From: Gammaproteobacteria bacterium
Lineage (GTDB): Bacteria > Pseudomonadota > Gammaproteobacteria > Pseudomonadales > Azotimanducaceae
Direction: 5' to 3'
Assembly: GCA_009846005.1 (NCBI GenBank)
Contig: VXYL01000016.1
Location: 258,141 to 313,493, forward strand
Length of the DNA stretch: 55,353 nt
The first letter of the stretch is position 1, and every line of letters starts with the position of its first letter. Positions 14,337-49,897 of this stretch are shown in pieces. A model generated the notes under the pieces. It searched no databases and had not been told where the DNA came from. It saw only the letters and a program-made list of their open reading frames with translations. The position numbers and the translations under genes are program-made.

Positions 14337-15569
14337 TCAGTAGACCGACCGCGGCCCGGATGCCTGCTGTCGGACGCGTTCAGTGAGCTCCTGATCGATC
14401 CCGATCGCGAACAGGCCCCCCGGGCCGACGATCTTGTGGACCATCAGCTTTTCGACTTCCTTGCGTTCCCGCTCCGTGACCTCTTGGTAGGCGTCGCTCT
14501 TGAGGAACGCCTTGTAAGTGCCGCTGGTATCCATGAACGGGACGATGAATCCGGGGATGAGCGCCTGGATGATGGCGCCGCGCTTCTTGTCGGTCTGGTT
14601 CATGCCGGCCCGGTGCCAGGTGCGGGCGTCGTAGAGGACGATCGTGCCGGCCGGGGCTTCGATGACGTCGGCGTCGGGACCGGCATAGGGGAGCCCGAAC
14701 TCGGCGCGGTGGCCCCGCCGGTAGGTATTGGTGGAAATGCCCCACTCCTTGGGCGGCGGCTTGTTGGACGCGTGGCTGCCGAGTTTGAACAGGGTGGCGC
14801 CGTTCTCCTTGGTGAAGTCGGAGACGCAGACGTTGCGCTGCATGCCGAGCACAAGGTCGCCCGAGGGCACCGGAATCCGGTCGCCGGTGCCCCAGAGGTA
14901 CGGGAAGTCGTTGTGCCAGCCCTGCACTTCCCGTTTGCCGTCGTCGCGGGTCAGCGCCGAGACGCCCGGCGAGTGGCCGAGCCGGATGTCCCGCGTGTGC
15001 ATGTACTCCCGGGTCAGCCACAACGACACGGGTTCGACGCTGACCTTGGCGACTGCCGGATCCTGGGCCAGCGGCGCTTGGCGCACGGGTTCGCGCTCGG
15101 CATAGGCGTCGACGCATCCGACCCGCTGCAGGCCGTCCACGACGCTCGGCGGCAGTACGCAGGCAAGCGCGACCCAACCCTCCTTATAAAGCGTTTCCAA
15201 GTATTGGGAAGGCAGCTTCTCCGGCCCGTGGCCAATCTGAAACGTTCCCGGGGGCGTACCGTTTCCCAACGAACCGTCCGCAGCGAGGCTGGACTCCCCT
15301 AGCCGCAGCCCCGTCGCGGAATCCAACGTGGTCGTGTCCGCCTGAAGGCGCAGTCCCGTGGCGACGTGCCTGAAACCGTTGTCCGAGACGTCCCAAATCG
15401 CAGCATCGTCGACGTGTTCCTGCACGCCAAGGGTCTTGCCGTCGCTGGTCGCGAGCCAGTCGCCGTTGGCATCGGTCAAGTAGCGGAAATGGTGCCGGGG
15501 CCTGGCGACGGTGATGACCCGCGGGTTGTATTCGCTCGCGGTCTTGGGTCGTTCGCTAGTCGCTAACAC
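14337..15569 (-). CDS. Phytanoyl-CoA dioxygenase family protein with N-terminal extension
   Basis: 410 aa Fe(II)/2-oxoglutarate oxygenase of the PhyH family. Iron ligands: HND in GWHNDFPYLWG and the distal His in RTWHRAGMNQ. The first ~110 residues are unusual: a run of short beta-like segments (GDWLATSDGK, AAIWDVSDNG, GLRLQADTTTL) resembling one or two lobes of a beta-trefoil rather than any PhyH region. The start is GTG at 15569, preceded at 7-12 nt by a very strong AAGGGGG site; the longer frame starting at 15596 would place that site inside the gene. Upstream of the CoA transferase and crotonase genes, same strand. Confidence 0.87.
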   Translation of the reverse strand: MLATSERPKTASEYNPRVITVARPRHHFRYLTDANGDWLATSDGKTLGVQEHVDDAAIWDVSDNGFRHVATGLRLQADTTTLDSATGLRLGESSLAADGSLGNGTPPGTFQIGHGPEKLPSQYLETLYKEGWVALACVLPPSVVDGLQRVGCVDAYAEREPVRQAPLAQDPAVAKVSVEPVSLWLTREYMHTRDIRLGHSPGVSALTRDDGKREVQGWHNDFPYLWGTGDRIPVPSGDLVLGMQRNVCVSDFTKENGATLFKLGSHASNKPPPKEWGISTNTYRRGHRAEFGLPYAGPDADVIEAPAGTIVLYDARTWHRAGMNQTDKKRGAIIQALIPGFIVPFMDTSGTYKAFLKSDAYQEVTERERKEVEKLMVHKIVGPGGLFAIGIDQELTERVRQQASGPRSVY

Positions 15570-15613
15570 GTTGCCACCCCCTTTAAGCCGTAGCACGCGA
15601 GTATAACCGCCAC

Positions 15614-17732: not shown

Positions 17733-17773
17733 CGCAGCGTGACGATCGCAGTCGGTTGGCGGATAATCGACCG

Positions 17774-19225
17774 ATGCGCGCCTATCCCCTCGAAGCCCGA
17801 CGACACAACGCGGGCCGTGCCAACGTTCCCCTGACTGCCGAGCAACTCCGCGAGTTCGTCGCCCGCGGATTCGTGACCTTGAAGTCCTCGCTGCCCGAGA
17901 GCTACCACCGGGTCATCTTCGAGAGGTTCGACGAGTTGGCCCAGGGGATCGGGCACTTCGGCAACAACCTGTTGCCGCTCATCCCGGAATTGAACGAGTT
18001 CTTCGAGGACCCGGTAGTGAAAGGCGCATTGACGAGCGTGGTTGGCGAAGGGTATTCGATGCACCCGCACCGCGCCCTGCACAAGAACCCGCCGGACAGC
18101 GACGAGCAAGAGTTTCACAAGGACAGCTACTGGGGTTATGTGCGCCGGGTCCGCAACCATCGCCCGTGGTGGGTGATGATCATGTACTTCCCCCAGGACA
18201 CCCAACTGGCCAAGGGACCCACGGCGGTGATGGACGGCAGCCAACACCTCAACCAGCGGCCGGAGGATTTCTGCCAGGAGGTCCCTATTGCCGGTCCAGC
18301 GGGGTCGTTCGTGCTGATTCACTACGACATCTGGCACCGCAAGATGAAAAACCGTACCGAGGCCAATCGGTACATGTTCAAATTCGAGTTCGTGCGCCTG
18401 CGGCCCCCGGCCCGAGTCGATGCGGGGATTCGCTGGCGCAAACCCCGAAAGACGCCCGGCCTCGATCTCTCGCCGGTGTGGCAGTCCACCTGGAGCTGGC
18501 TTGCGGGGCAGGGGGCCCCGGCAGCGAACGGCAAGGCAAGCGTCGACGACTTGGGTGCCGACGACGAATCCGTCGGCATCAACGCGGGCTACCGGTTGGG
18601 CCTGCACAACGAGACGCGCGCCCTGCTTGACGCGCTGGACTCGAATCCCGCCACCCACGGGAACAAGCGCCGGTACTCGGACAACGGCCAGATCTGGCGC
18701 GAGGACGCCGTGGTACGCAACGCGGCCCATGGTTTGGTCCAGGCGGGCGACAGGTCCGTCCCGGGGCTCGTCGATGTGCTCCGCGACGGCACCCCGCGCG
18801 GCCGCAAGCACGCCGCTTTCGCGCTGGGGGAGATTGGCGCCGCGGACGCCGGGGACGCCTTGATCGATGCCTTGGCCGACGACGACGTCCACGTCCGCAT
18901 CGCTGCGGCGGAAGCCCTCGGCATCATCGAACCCACGCCGGCGACCCGCGACGGCCTGTTGGCGGCATTGGGTGACCCGGCATCCGAAGTCCGTTTCGAC
19001 GCGGCGCTGTCACTGACCCGGGCCGCGGTGTGCGGTTGCACCGAACTGATGGCCGGAACCGTGGCGCGGCTCGAGGAAGCCCTGTTCGACACCAACCGCT
19101 ACGTCAGCGCCTACGCGGCCGAAACGCTGGAGCGAATCGGCACGCGCGAGGCGTTCGACGCCTTGGTGCCGTTCCTGCGGACCGCCCGTTGGTGCCCGCA
19201 TACGGACAACCGCCGACCCTTTTGA
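17774..19225 (+). CDS. Phytanoyl-CoA dioxygenase domain fused to HEAT repeats
   Basis: 483 aa. Residues about 15-220 are a PhyH-family Fe(II)/2-oxoglutarate oxygenase with iron ligands in EFHKDSYWG (HxD) and IWHRKMKNRT (distal His). After a linker, residues about 310-480 contain four to five HEAT/PBS-lyase-like repeats (VPGLVDVLRDG, RGRKHAAFALGEIG, VRIAAAEALG, EVRFDAALSL, YVSAYAAETLERIG), a protein-binding solenoid. The ATG at 17774 is used; an in-frame TTG lies 18 bases upstream. The C-terminus ends ARWCPHTDNRRPF. Kinase gene follows after four bases. Confidence 0.88.
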   Translation: MRAYPLEARRHNAGRANVPLTAEQLREFVARGFVTLKSSLPESYHRVIFERFDELAQGIGHFGNNLLPLIPELNEFFEDPVVKGALTSVVGEGYSMHPHRALHKNPPDSDEQEFHKDSYWGYVRRVRNHRPWWVMIMYFPQDTQLAKGPTAVMDGSQHLNQRPEDFCQEVPIAGPAGSFVLIHYDIWHRKMKNRTEANRYMFKFEFVRLRPPARVDAGIRWRKPRKTPGLDLSPVWQSTWSWLAGQGAPAANGKASVDDLGADDESVGINAGYRLGLHNETRALLDALDSNPATHGNKRRYSDNGQIWREDAVVRNAAHGLVQAGDRSVPGLVDVLRDGTPRGRKHAAFALGEIGAADAGDALIDALADDDVHVRIAAAEALGIIEPTPATRDGLLAALGDPASEVRFDAALSLTRAAVCGCTELMAGTVARLEEALFDTNRYVSAYAAETLERIGTREAFDALVPFLRTARWCPHTDNRRPF

Positions 19226-20887: not shown

Positions 20888-20956
20888 GGGTCTTTGTGGT
20901 CGCCCGCACGTCCCAGACGCCGTGGGATGGCGGGACGGGACAAGCCCGTCCCCTAC
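20884..20956. repeat. REP-like inverted pair ending two convergent genes
   Basis: Left half 20884-20905 is a shortened form B (GTAGGGG-TCT-TTGT-GGTCGCCCG). Right half 20932-20956 is form A (GGGACGGG-ACAAG-CCCGTCCC-CTAC). The left GTAG provides the TAG stop of the dehydratase on the plus strand, and the right CTAC provides the TAG stop (20953-20955) of the PhyH gene on the minus strand, so the pair exactly fills the space between the genes. Confidence 0.88.
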
Positions 20957-21858
20957 GACGGGTCCGCGATTCGCGTCGTGCCGTCAGCGTGGTTGAAGTA
21001 CTGCGCGGATAACGTCCGTTGGTTCTCGTAGATGGACCCTTGGTAGGGCGCCCGGGGTAGGGGCATCTTCACCGGAACGTCCTCCAATCGCGGTCGCAGT
21101 GTCGGTTCGCCGTGCACCATCCGTCCGTTGAAGTCGTCCAGCTTGTCCAGGTGCTCGATGCCCGCAAGCGGCCAGGCATCGGCCGCGGCGTATTCGAAGA
21201 ACAGTACGCGCCGTTGCCGGTCGGACTTGTTCATTCCTGAGCCGTGCACGAGACGCGCGTGGTGGATCGTGATGGATCCCGCCCGACCGTTGACTTCCCG
21301 GGCGCCGGAGACATCAAGATGCTCCCGGGCGACGTCGATCGCACCGCAGAACGCGCCGTAGCTGTGGTGGTCGTAGACCGGTCCCCGGTGCGAACCCGGC
21401 AGCACCATCAGCGGACCGTTGTCGGGATCCATGTCGTCGAGGAGGATGCCGACGGCCAAGACGTCCTGGTTGGTATGCGGATAGAACGCCCAGTCCTGGT
21501 GCCATTCCACGGGAGCACCGTAGTCGGCGGACTTCATGTTGATCTTGCCGCCTGCGCGCAGGCGGATGTCCTTCCCGATCAGCGGTTCGAGGGCGGCCAT
21601 GATGCCCCGGTGGGCGGCCAGTTCACGGTAGAACGGATCGGCGAGATGGGGCTGTTTGATCCGTCTCACCCGGGGTGCATCCGGGCTGTGGGACGCTTCC
21701 AGGTCGAGGATGTTGGTGTGGTCGTCGATGCCGGCGGCGCTGGCGACGATGTCGTCGGTGACCCGGCGCAGGTCGGCCAAGGTCTCGGTTTCGAGGACAT
21801 TCTCCACGAGGACGTAGCCGTCGTTGCGGTATTGGTCGATCTGCGCGTGGGTCAGCAT
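20953..21858 (-). CDS. Phytanoyl-CoA dioxygenase family protein
   Basis: 301 aa Fe(II)/2-oxoglutarate oxygenase. WHQDWAFYPHTN carries the HxD iron motif, DMDPDNGPLMVLPGSH is the family core, and HGSGMNKSDRQRRV contains the distal His and the 2-oxoglutarate-binding Arg. All facial-triad residues are intact. No signal peptide. Divergent from the Gfo/Idh/MocA-aldo/keto reductase gene, with which it may share a control region. Substrate unknown. Confidence 0.92.
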   Translation of the reverse strand: MLTHAQIDQYRNDGYVLVENVLETETLADLRRVTDDIVASAAGIDDHTNILDLEASHSPDAPRVRRIKQPHLADPFYRELAAHRGIMAALEPLIGKDIRLRAGGKINMKSADYGAPVEWHQDWAFYPHTNQDVLAVGILLDDMDPDNGPLMVLPGSHRGPVYDHHSYGAFCGAIDVAREHLDVSGAREVNGRAGSITIHHARLVHGSGMNKSDRQRRVLFFEYAAADAWPLAGIEHLDKLDDFNGRMVHGEPTLRPRLEDVPVKMPLPRAPYQGSIYENQRTLSAQYFNHADGTTRIADPS

Positions 21859-47123: not shown

Positions 47124-47218
47124 GTAGGGGCGACGCTAACGCGCCCGTAGGGCGCGCCTTCGCCCGCTACGGATGTATCGACGGGGTCGATTCGGGACGG
47201 GACAAGCCCGTCCCCTAC
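47124..47218. repeat. REP-like inverted pair (forms E and A) supplying a stop codon
   Basis: Left half 47124-47170: GTAGGGGCGA, an inner GCGCCC-GTA-GGGCGC hairpin, and closing TCGCCCGCTAC. Right half 47194-47218: GGGACGGG-ACAAG-CCCGTCCC-CTAC. The right foot supplies the TAG stop of the ArsC-type gene (47215-47217). Confidence 0.85.
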
Positions 47219-47691
47219 GGCCCGTTTCCCTGCGGCTTCCGTACGCGGCACACCGGGTGATATCCGTCTACTTCGCTGGCCAGCAAGTCCCGGCTGAAAG
47301 CGCCGATCGCATCCCGGATTCGACGGAACACCGCCGCGAACTCCTCTTCGTCCATCCACGGATAGTCCGGGTCCTCGAAGGCCCGGTGCAGCGTTCGCTT
47401 CGCGCTTGGGAAGACGGGACAGGCTTCCTTCGCCTGGTCGCACACGGTAACGACTAAGTCGAAATCGTCGTCGATGTAGTCGTCGACGTGATCGGAAGTG
47501 TGGCCTGAAATGTCGATGCCGATTTCCGCCATCACCTTGATCGCCACGGGGTGAACACCCTTGGGTGCCGTCCCCGCGCTTTCGACCTCGATGCGCTCGC
47601 CGCCGAGGTGGGTGAGCCAACCGTGCGCCATCTGCGAGCGAGCGCGGTTGCCGGTGCAGATGACCAGTAGCCGAAACGGCGTGCTGCTCAC
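47215..47691 (-). CDS. arsC: ArsC-type arsenate reductase / low-molecular-weight phosphatase
   Basis: 158 aa. The P-loop CTGNRARSQMA gives CX5R (Cys12, Arg18), and Cys84 and Cys91 in VTVCDQAKEACPVFP are the resolving cysteines of thioredoxin-coupled arsenate reductases. Predicted to reduce arsenate to arsenite. It starts at GTG 47691 inside the stop of the upstream PhyH gene (GTGA), so translation is coupled. No arsenite pump or arsR is nearby. Its stop codon is in a REP-like repeat. Confidence 0.9.
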   Translation of the reverse strand: MSSTPFRLLVICTGNRARSQMAHGWLTHLGGERIEVESAGTAPKGVHPVAIKVMAEIGIDISGHTSDHVDDYIDDDFDLVVTVCDQAKEACPVFPSAKRTLHRAFEDPDYPWMDEEEFAAVFRRIRDAIGAFSRDLLASEVDGYHPVCRVRKPQGNGP

Positions 47692-48842
47692 AGCCGGGGT
47701 GATCGTTTCAGAACGCTGACTGCGTGCTTTAGGTGCAGGGCGAGTTCGAGATCGTCGTCGGCGATCGCCGCTGCCTTTCGATCCTCGAGGGAACGGAGTC
47801 TCTGCGTAAAGGAGTCTTCGTCGGCCGGCGCGAACGAGGGACCGTCCAGGTCGGGGTCCATGGGGTGGCCATGGGCACCCGGCACGAGCACGTCGAAGTC
47901 CTCCTTCAAGACCGAGTCCGCCGGCGCCTGGCACTCGGCGACGTAGTTGAGCGCACCGGCAGGTTGCCGATAGCCGATCAAACGCTGCAACTCCACGGGC
48001 AGCTTGCGCGCGATGTGCGGTGGACAGGCAAGTAACTGGTTCTCCTCTTGGGCGAGAAACGCCAGGGCGTAGTTGATGTTCATGCCGATGCGGCGTTCCG
48101 GGGAGGTGTTCACCCCCGCCCCGTGAACCGACCAGCCCGTCCAGACCAGCGCACTGCCCTTGCGCATGACCGCCTGGACCGTGGGCTGCCGATGACTAAG
48201 GTGTCCGCCGCGGGGTTCCTCGCGATGGCTGCCGAGCACGACATGGGTGGCGCCGTTGTCTTCGGTGAAATCCGACAGCGCCCACATCACCTCGACCTGT
48301 GGGTCGAGGCCCGCATTCTGGAAATCATGGACCCACATGCCGTTGGCGCGGTGCAGCTTGAGATGGTGCGGCATGGCCTCGGTGCCGGCACCCGGGCCCA
48401 CGTCGATGATCTGGGTCAGATGGAGTTGCCACGGGTAGCGGAAGCCCTTCTCGCCCTTGCCGGACTTGCCGTTGATCTGCACCGCATCGCCGGACAGGCG
48501 CTGTTCGCCTAGGATCGCATTGGCGAGGCGGAGGATCGCCGGGTGCGCGATCATCTTGTGGCTCGCCGGCGATCTCGACACCAGGGCACCGACACGGCGG
48601 GTGCCGCCGAGGCCATGCAAACCGTGCGGCGTCGCGTCGATGTAGGGACGCATCTCTGCGACCAGGGCGTCGCAGGCGGTGCCGTCCACGGCGTTTTCGA
48701 TCACCACGAAGCCGTGCCGGTCGACGGCCTCCAGAACGTTCCGGTGGAACTCCTCGTCCGTATCTGCCGCCTTCGCCCGCGCGTAGTCGAAGCGAAGCAG
48801 TTCGTGGCTGCCGAATGCGTTAGTGACTGTCGAGGCCTGCAT
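47688..48842 (-). CDS. PhyH-family protein with HxA in place of the HxD iron motif
   Basis: 384 aa. Family core TMWALxDFTxDNGATxVVxGSH is present (here MWALSDFTEDNGATHVVLGSH-like, residues 186-206), the distal iron His is H240 in WSVHGAGVN and the 2-oxoglutarate Arg follows (about 250). At the first iron site the usual HRD is HRA (His164-Arg165-Ala166; Ala codon GCC at 48345-48347), a single-base change from GAC. In known Fe/2OG halogenases this Asp is Ala or Gly. The C-terminal ~60 residues are an added acidic helical tail. It overlaps ArsC (GTGA) and is divergent from an SDR. Confidence 0.88.
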   Translation of the reverse strand: MQASTVTNAFGSHELLRFDYARAKAADTDEEFHRNVLEAVDRHGFVVIENAVDGTACDALVAEMRPYIDATPHGLHGLGGTRRVGALVSRSPASHKMIAHPAILRLANAILGEQRLSGDAVQINGKSGKGEKGFRYPWQLHLTQIIDVGPGAGTEAMPHHLKLHRANGMWVHDFQNAGLDPQVEVMWALSDFTEDNGATHVVLGSHREEPRGGHLSHRQPTVQAVMRKGSALVWTGWSVHGAGVNTSPERRIGMNINYALAFLAQEENQLLACPPHIARKLPVELQRLIGYRQPAGALNYVAECQAPADSVLKEDFDVLVPGAHGHPMDPDLDGPSFAPADEDSFTQRLRSLEDRKAAAIADDDLELALHLKHAVSVLKRSPRL

Positions 48843-48955
48843 GGTCCGGTCTTCCCGTCGCGCGCCGCATTATCGACGGGAACGCCAGAGCGCGCCACGG
48901 TTCAAGGCCTGCGGGTATGCTGTGCCGTTTCGTCCGGACGAAAAGAGGACCGACG

Positions 48956-49897
48956 ATGGCTGCCGACGAACATGGGGTCCAGAACAATGCACACCCCGAC
49001 TTGGATGTGCTGGCGGGAGGCGTGGCCGTGGTCACGGGCGGCGCCTCGGGAATCGGCTTTGCCTTGGTGGAGAAGGCCATCGACGGCGGAATGCACGCGG
49101 TGATCGCCGACATCGAAGCCGCGGCCATCGCCGAGGCCGAGTCCCGACTGGCCGACGCCGCGAGGGCAGCGGGGGTCGAGGTCTTCGGCCATCGCGTCGA
49201 TGTCTCTGCGGAGGCGGACGTCCTCGAGCTGGAAGCGGCCGTTTCGGCTCGTTTCCCGGACAACCCGGTGTCGCTCCTATGCTGCAATGCGGGTGTCGGC
49301 GGCGGGGGTCCCGTGTCCAGGGCCAGCGACATCGACTGGGACTTCGTGCTCGGCGTCAATGTCAAGGGTGTCGCCAACTGCGTGCGCGCGTTCGTCCCCA
49401 AGATGGCGTCGGGGGACGCGCCCGGATCCGTGATGGCCACGTCGTCGCAAGACGGGCTGTGCGCCGCCCAAGGCGTCTACGGTGTCTCGAAACACGCCTG
49501 CGTGGCGTTGATGGAGGCCCTCTACCAGGAACTCCGCGGTCGTCTGTCGGTACACGTGCTATGCCCGAACGTCGTGGCGACCAACATCGTGACCTCCGAA
49601 CGCAACCGACCGGAGCGTTTCGGCGGCCCGCGCAGGACGAGCGCGGCGAATCCCGTCCTTGAACGATTCAAAGCGTTCGGCATGCCCCCGTCGCGCTGCG
49701 CGGACCTCGTGTTCGACGCCATCCGCACGGGCACCTTCTACATCATGGCGGAGTCGGAGGACGACCCGGGCTACGTGCGGCTGGAGGCCGAGACCCGCAT
49801 GAAGGCGATCCTCGAGGACGGCTTGCCCTATCGGCCCCGCAGCGCCTACATCGCCAGCATGTTCAATCCGCGGACCCCGATGCCCGGAAAAGACTGA
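48956..49897 (+). CDS. Short-chain dehydrogenase/reductase
   Basis: 313 aa. NAD(P)-binding TGGASGIG, CCNAG, a Ser in MATSSQDG and YGVSK give the classical tetrad. Start at ATG 48956 (MAADEHGVQ) with AGAGGA upstream. C-terminal extension of about 50 residues (EDDPGYVRLEAETRM) is longer than classical SDRs. Divergent from the HxA PhyH gene, so the two may share regulation and a substrate. Confidence 0.9.
   Translation: MAADEHGVQNNAHPDLDVLAGGVAVVTGGASGIGFALVEKAIDGGMHAVIADIEAAAIAEAESRLADAARAAGVEVFGHRVDVSAEADVLELEAAVSARFPDNPVSLLCCNAGVGGGGPVSRASDIDWDFVLGVNVKGVANCVRAFVPKMASGDAPGSVMATSSQDGLCAAQGVYGVSKHACVALMEALYQELRGRLSVHVLCPNVVATNIVTSERNRPERFGGPRRTSAANPVLERFKAFGMPPSRCADLVFDAIRTGTFYIMAESEDDPGYVRLEAETRMKAILEDGLPYRPRSAYIASMFNPRTPMPGKD

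Follow-up and report, generated by a model that had tools for sequence, protein, structure and literature searches.

The window, the whole stretch of DNA analyzed here (55,353 nucleotides), spans positions 258141 to 313493 of contig C40 in a 5.0-Mb genome of 106 contigs (G000). Its minus strand encodes, at 47688-48842, a protein of 384 amino acids (P0001) that matches the PhyH family (PF05721) over residues 41 to 252 with 82.3 bits against a cut-off of 22, placing it in the PhyH fold family. The iron motif reads H164-R165-A166, with alanine where HxD PhyH proteins carry aspartate. P0001 lacks the HxD/E...H motif of the 2-His-1-carboxylate PhyH enzymes, shows the HxA/HxG-for-HxD replacement of Fe(II)/2-oxoglutarate (2OG) halogenases in general, and retains the residues of an Fe(II)/2OG enzyme (His164, His240, and Arg251), all invariant in a 33-row alignment of homologues (A2). 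The features of the locus and the other PhyH genes of the window are as follows, where clade A is the group of P0001 and clade G its sister clade:

47688..48842, minus strand: PhyH-family protein P0001, HxA replacing HxD (PF05721; dN/dS 0.10-0.20)
48345..48347, minus strand: Ala166 (GCC) at the iron-binding Asp position; Ala in 24/24 clade-A loci, Gly in 10/10 sister loci
48351..48353, minus strand: His164 (CAC), predicted proximal iron ligand; invariant in 33/33 rows of A2
48291..48293, minus strand: Glu184 (GAG), in the cavity on the following strand and candidate compensating carboxylate; Glu in 32/32 A/G rows
48246..48248, minus strand: Thr199 (ACC), probably the 2OG-side Thr; invariant in A2, at the place of PrhA Thr167 by our reading
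48132..48134, minus strand: Trp237, three residues N-terminal of the distal His; Trp in 32/32 A/G rows, Ser in 49/54 HxD relatives
48123..48125, minus strand: His240 (CAC), predicted distal iron ligand; invariant in A2, aligned with AsqJ His211
48090..48092, minus strand: Arg251 (CGC), 2OG-binding Arg position; invariant in A2 and in 54/54 HxD relatives, aligned with AsqJ Arg223
47691..47870, minus strand: C-terminal tail (residues 325-384) found in clade A but not in clade G; weakly UVR-like
48917..49897, plus strand: short-chain dehydrogenase/reductase (SDR), divergent neighbor (PF00106)
47215..47676, minus strand: low-molecular-weight (LMW) phosphatase/arsenate-reductase-like protein, directly downstream (PF01451)
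20953-21858, minus strand: PhyH protein with HQD
14337-15596, minus strand: PhyH protein with HND
17756-19225, plus strand: PhyH protein with HKD

An earlier note on this DNA had reported that the Asp of an HRD motif is replaced by Ala, that the distal His and the 2OG Arg are kept, and that the other three PhyH proteins of the window retain HxD. All of this is borne out: the minus-strand codon at 48347..48345 is GCC (Ala166), His240 and Arg251 are present, and the other motifs read HQD, HND, and HKD. A single base separates GCC from GAC (Asp) at codon 166, as a sequencing error or a decaying gene might produce, and one clade-A relative, the copy in genome G015 (L065/L088 10001-11101), has an in-frame TGA upstream of its HxA motif. 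Conservation makes such an origin scarcely credible. At least 36 relative loci were retrieved from a named genome collection with two peptide patterns. Position 166 is Ala in 24/24 clade-A loci (64-92% identity to the window protein; the motif of L085 is HKA), and the motif is HRG in 10/10 clade-G loci (51-54% identity); the remaining two of the 36, from Acidimicrobiaceae (41%) and Myxococcales (38%), have HRD. The codon is GCC in all 15 clade-A genes compared, the window gene included, and dN/dS against the window gene ranges from 0.10 to 0.195 over 14 clade-A genes and equals 0.18 for a single clade-G gene (15 homologues).

Alignment A2 comprises 33 rows from the 36 loci without L088 (in-frame stop), L100, L101 (partial), and L102. 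Its 57 invariant columns include His164, His240, Arg251, Thr199, and Arg83, and five random sites would all be invariant with a probability of roughly 7e-5; these residues hold down to about 51% identity. The earlier note had taken conservation of the Ala among close homologues as support for function, which Ala or Gly in 34/34 loci of the two clades now provides. Its proposal of a halogenase or an inactivated oxygenase survives in part: the halogenase is weighed below, and inactivation by decay is excluded by the Ala or Gly kept in the clade loci together with the low dN/dS and the invariant iron and 2OG residues.

Scores divide the matches within the bacterial family (206 genomes) into an A-type, present in 25 genomes (at least 613 bits except one contig-edge piece at 361), a G-type, present in 10 (482-536 bits), and others of at most 247 bits, and the motifs are as expected in all 24 A-type and 6 G-type loci read. 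A class sample of 274 genomes gave three matches at E 1e-60 or better, which are the genome of the window and two HxD proteins. Of the 16 genomes searched from its own genus, 15 have the gene, a distribution like that of a core gene. On plasmids, 82 records have a match, every best place lies below 60% identity, and the best among the matches listed reaches 36.6%. The locus sets of these searches overlap largely and are not summed. The 34 A/G loci come from Gammaproteobacteria, Pseudomonadales, and one Proteobacteria metagenome-assembled genome, including OM182 clade, ALOHA, and Tara Red Sea records; the COS, RHO, IRC, and SB06xx bins are presumably sponge derived.

In a 58-row tree, from which seven near-identical clade-A rows were omitted, clades A (16 rows) and G (9 rows) form one branch (100/100) among HxD PhyH proteins, with supports of 100/99 for A alone and 85/81 for G alone. 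Four chlorinating enzymes (L157-L160) form their own 100/100 branch beside other HxD paralogues and apart from A+G, in a tree whose long branches make deep placements unsure by the program's own warning. Because the tree places the two groups apart, the Asp would have been lost on the A+G branch independently of the SyrB2-type enzymes. Against TIGR01762 (cut-off 226.3 bits), no match is listed for P0001 at E values up to 10, where the search filters drop most matches above 0.1, and the clade-G member L093 scores 16.1 bits. The own genome has nothing above the cut-off (best 53.7 bits, at another locus than P0001), and a search of 293 genomes from the order found rows above it in 4. Given the missing match and the separate branch, P0001 was not assigned to the TIGR01762 family.

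To our knowledge, the natural HxA enzymes of the superfamily are all halogenases, and the SyrB2-type fold is related to the PhyH fold. P0001 shares with the SyrB2-type enzymes a 2-His iron site and Ala or Gly for Asp; the alternation between Ala and Gly in the two sister clades is the same as among the true chlorinating enzymes (HQA in L157-L159, HQG in L160). P0001 could be a carrier-independent halogenase derived from HxD PhyH proteins by a route distinct from that of the SyrB2 family, with chloride or bromide in the place of the Asp and with Glu184 binding a cationic substrate or tuning the halide. We regard this as possible, if on the unlikely side. In SyrB2, which has been called EctD related (PMC2871039), chloride occupies the space left by Ala118 (PMC2767507). 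Plant DAH became a halogenase by an Asp-to-Gly change within an oxygenase clade, more precisely a clade of hydroxylases, and chloride is incorporated by two plant hydroxylases once their Asp is mutated to Gly/Ala (PMC12346261). The marine hosts, as judged from the record names of the A/G loci, also fit. Against a halogenase stand the missing TIGR01762 match and the position in the tree far from the chlorinating enzymes, which is nonetheless compatible with convergence; moreover, none of the three carrier-protein matches (PF00550) of the genome lies on contig C40. With the carrier-independent halogenases WelO5, BesD, AdeV, and plant DAH, compared by description only, P0001 has the small residue for Asp in common. 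The descriptions consulted gave no signature beyond HxG/HxA, and that of AdeV (PMC12766721) nothing bearing on the choice between hydroxylase and halogenase.

The columns of 32 A/G rows were compared with those of 12 HxD relatives, and chosen columns with 54 HxD relatives (40 family-search matches below 250 bits, the 12 of the first comparison, and L170 and L171). Position 166 is Ala or Gly in the A/G rows and Asp in 54/54 relatives. Position 184 is Glu in 32/32 A/G rows, and in 30/30 A/G loci of the family and class searches, a set that overlaps these rows; in the relatives it is Asn (47), Ser (5), Thr (1), or Pro (1). Position 234 is Trp instead of Tyr (48) or Phe (6), position 237 is Trp instead of Ser (49 of 54), and positions 262 and 299 are Phe and Asn where all 54 relatives have Trp and Gly, respectively. 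His164, Thr199, His240, and Arg251 are identical in 54/54 relatives and Arg83 in 51, with three gaps. Judged from these alignments, the Asp loss is accompanied on the A+G branch by remodeling of the predicted active site (Glu184, Trp234, Trp237, and Phe262), where the two Trp residues and Phe262 would lie close to the iron. The contrast of 32/32 with 0/54 at position 184 goes back to a single event on the tree, and these rows are not independent replicates. An invariant cavity Glu, in the place of an Asn in most HxD relatives, disfavors an anion site and hence a halogenase; the residue aligned to it in the four chlorinating enzymes is Thr, which we take to be SyrB2 Thr143. A neighboring acid is compatible with halogenation, since HctB has a second-sphere Glu223 near its chloride (PMC6218459). 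A general link between an acid at position 184 and a motif without Asp found no support among the other PhyH paralogues of the genome (acid in 1/4 non-Asp versus 3/67 Asp proteins, p = 0.21, or 0.25 with a fragment counted).

In a phmmer alignment whose numbering is confirmed by His240 and Arg251 (AsqJ His211 and Arg223), Glu184 corresponds to AsqJ Asn157, which is included in an active-site quantum model (PMC5862883). In SptF, Thr148 would be at position 184 and Asn150 at 186 (Met186), assuming no gaps and native numbering from query 180 = chain 144; both are described as hydrophilic cavity residues (PMC8748661). Glu184 might coordinate the iron directly, in a 2-His-1-Glu triad of new geometry that would serve an ordinary oxygenase. 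The exchange on one branch of Asp166 for a Glu184 where HxD relatives mostly have Asn, the alignment with active-site positions of AsqJ and, by our placement, SptF, and the prediction of strand 182-188 at a pLDDT of about 93 are consistent with this. We nevertheless consider it decidedly unlikely, as the SptF residues placed here face the substrate and are perhaps too distant from the iron, a P4H with rearranged ligands is reported to be inactive, and the change is a single event on the tree. More broadly, the role of the Asp may have passed to Glu184 on the neighboring strand, either as an iron ligand or as the residue fixing a replacing ligand, while Ala and Gly fill the old place interchangeably; this is a doubtful proposal which, if true, would define a type of Fe(II)/2OG site of which we found no description.

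AlphaFold2 (33 sequences) yields a model of modest quality, with a mean pLDDT of 74.6 and a pTM of 0.68, the block 181-190 at a pLDDT of 93 and the HxA block at about 67. Among the best 50 of 1681 Foldseek matches to the PDB, the top ones to this predicted model are oxygenases: DhiD (8zyb), AsqJ, PrhA, TlxIJ, AndA, and SptF. Of the known PhyH enzymes, DhiD, TlxIJ, AndA, SptF, and SwnH presumably are HxD enzymes. AsqJ and PrhA carry an HxD triad (PMC5862883 for AsqJ). The PhyH oxygenases (PF05721) of the AsqJ/PrhA/AndA/SptF/DhiD/SwnH type are thus the closest solved relatives by sequence and fold and share the proximal His, the distal His, and the Arg, whereas the present clades have HxA or HxG for their HxD, a Glu aligned with AsqJ Asn157, and a Trp (Trp237) ahead of the distal His. 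The SyrB2-type enzymes differ from P0001 by their family profile, their separate branch, and their Thr in the place of Glu184, and by the lack of a carrier protein on the contig of P0001.

A 2-His site is also found in human AspH, which belongs to a different 2OG oxygenase family from PhyH. AspH has an HxG...H motif with two His ligands and a water molecule at the carboxylate position, which is destabilized by D721A (PMC10947486, PMC13168262). It is a hydroxylase for which no halogenation of the substrate was seen, so that HxA/HxG is insufficient for calling a halogenase (PMC13168262). A paper on halogenase mining likewise states that HxA/G yields false positives (PMC12871659). The likeness to P0001 lies in the 2-His site and, if Glu184 plays the part of Asp721, in an acidic residue, but the acid of AspH precedes its distal His725 by four residues, whereas Glu184 is on another strand. 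The negative charge of a cavity Glu184 would fit an AspH-like hydroxylase, or direct ligation by Glu184, better than a halogenase. The tolerance of other enzymes to Asp loss varies: an Asp-to-Gly variant of FIH keeps some activity and an Asp-to-Ala variant does not (PMC10947486), and D414A and D414G of P4H are both dead. For a halogenase, the P4H mutants mean that Asp loss need not suffice.

The same dead mutants, together with the loss of one iron ligand and the presence of a C-terminal tail, would fit a non-catalytic sensor or scaffold of PhyH fold that still binds 2OG or metal, with the tail of clade A as contact site. The tail is helical, and a UVR domain (PF02151) was matched in one of five clade-A tails at E 0.032, below the cut-off, the tail of the window protein itself giving no match; a UVR domain was therefore rejected. 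Against this, invariance extends to both His, Arg251, Thr199, and Arg83, the clade-specific changes are conserved too, for which a dead enzyme would have no obvious use, and the tail is absent from clade G. A functional but non-catalytic protein is unlikely.

Gene calls were made with a home-made hexamer caller, and because clustering caught the focus gene in 20 of 25 clade-A entries, the clade-A neighborhoods were rechecked by tblastn with seven window neighbors as queries. Of the 24 loci, 11 have the SDR upstream and in divergent orientation, at a distance of 69-153 bases in 8 and of about 2.5 kb in 3; the other 13 show no SDR, some because the locus is short. In 6 of the 24, the LMW phosphatase gene follows 15-27 bases downstream; several of the 24 loci are short on one side. 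No other of the seven neighbors recurs, and these queries gave no conserved biosynthetic operon around clade A. In clade G, 6 of 10 loci (L093, L095-L099) have same-strand genes downstream for an amidohydrolase, a solute-binding protein, two permeases, and a CoA-transferase III (Pfam names read for L095), the ABC transporter being of the peptide type; L091 and L092 adjoin genes for an enoyl-CoA reductase and a URO-D protein (Pfam for L092). The operon contents may hint at the substrate class. The context of clade G looks catabolic, and the neighborhoods look more like uptake and breakdown or primary metabolism than natural-product assembly, an indirect indication. The catabolic look of clade G and the core-gene distribution speak against a halogenase.

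The missing Asp, both His, the 2OG Arg, and the Thr that are kept, purifying selection, and the clade-specific residues are read from the sequences themselves. The retention of His164, His240, Arg251, and Thr199 argues for an active iron/2OG site, in which the absence of the carboxylate makes space for water or halide; P0001 is probably a catalytically active 2-His Fe(II)/2OG enzyme. Either the clade is a new halogenating enzyme or it is an oxygenase with an unusual iron site. The SDR beside clade A and the uptake operon in the Gly clade suggest oxidation, and we favor a hydroxylase slightly over a halogenase; hydroxylation is a plausible, if tentative, assignment for P0001. In the preferred account, an active 2-His PhyH subfamily that hydroxylates via a water-filled site, the iron would be held by His164 and His240, the Asp position would be occupied by a small residue, Ala in clade A and Gly in clade G, and iron and 2OG would bind in the usual manner. 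A water fixed by Glu184, as by Asp721 in AspH, could take the vacant coordination site. O2 would then cleave 2OG, and the ferryl would hydroxylate a C-H bond of a small metabolite, the product alcohol perhaps being handed to the neighboring SDR. As a whole, this hydroxylase account is our leading one, held with reserve. A literature search, mostly outside the subscription journals, found no description of the clade or of the relocated Glu.

What determines hydroxylation versus halogenation at 2-His Fe(II)/2OG sites is debated, and mutation of the Asp alone can yield dead enzymes, as for P4H. Here, natural HxA and HxG sister clades can be compared with HxD relatives whose identity to the window protein, where checked, is 32-47%, and the clade-specific residues 184, 234, 237, 262, and 299 provide a short list that is individually testable. 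For the mining of halogenases by HxA/HxG, the clades are a caution that the rest of the cavity must be inspected too.

The genome of the window holds 73 PhyH matches, which in 5 Mb looks like a large expansion, a count taken from this genome alone. They comprise 67 H-D, 1 H-A (P0001), 3 H-G, and 1 H-H proteins and 1 fragment without a letter at that place. The window protein at 17756-19225 (plus strand) combines a PhyH domain (87-205) with HEAT repeats (335-420). The three H-G paralogues, L126 (C2:7539-9114), L143 (C79:22688-24314), and L144 (C99:103098-104655), have LHGG and form one group whose nearest tree row, L135, has HxD; they are thus a second, unrelated set of PhyH proteins without the Asp. 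In L120 (C80:117227-118820), the motif aligns as HQH, possibly a 3-His site, and an Asp occupies the place of Glu184.
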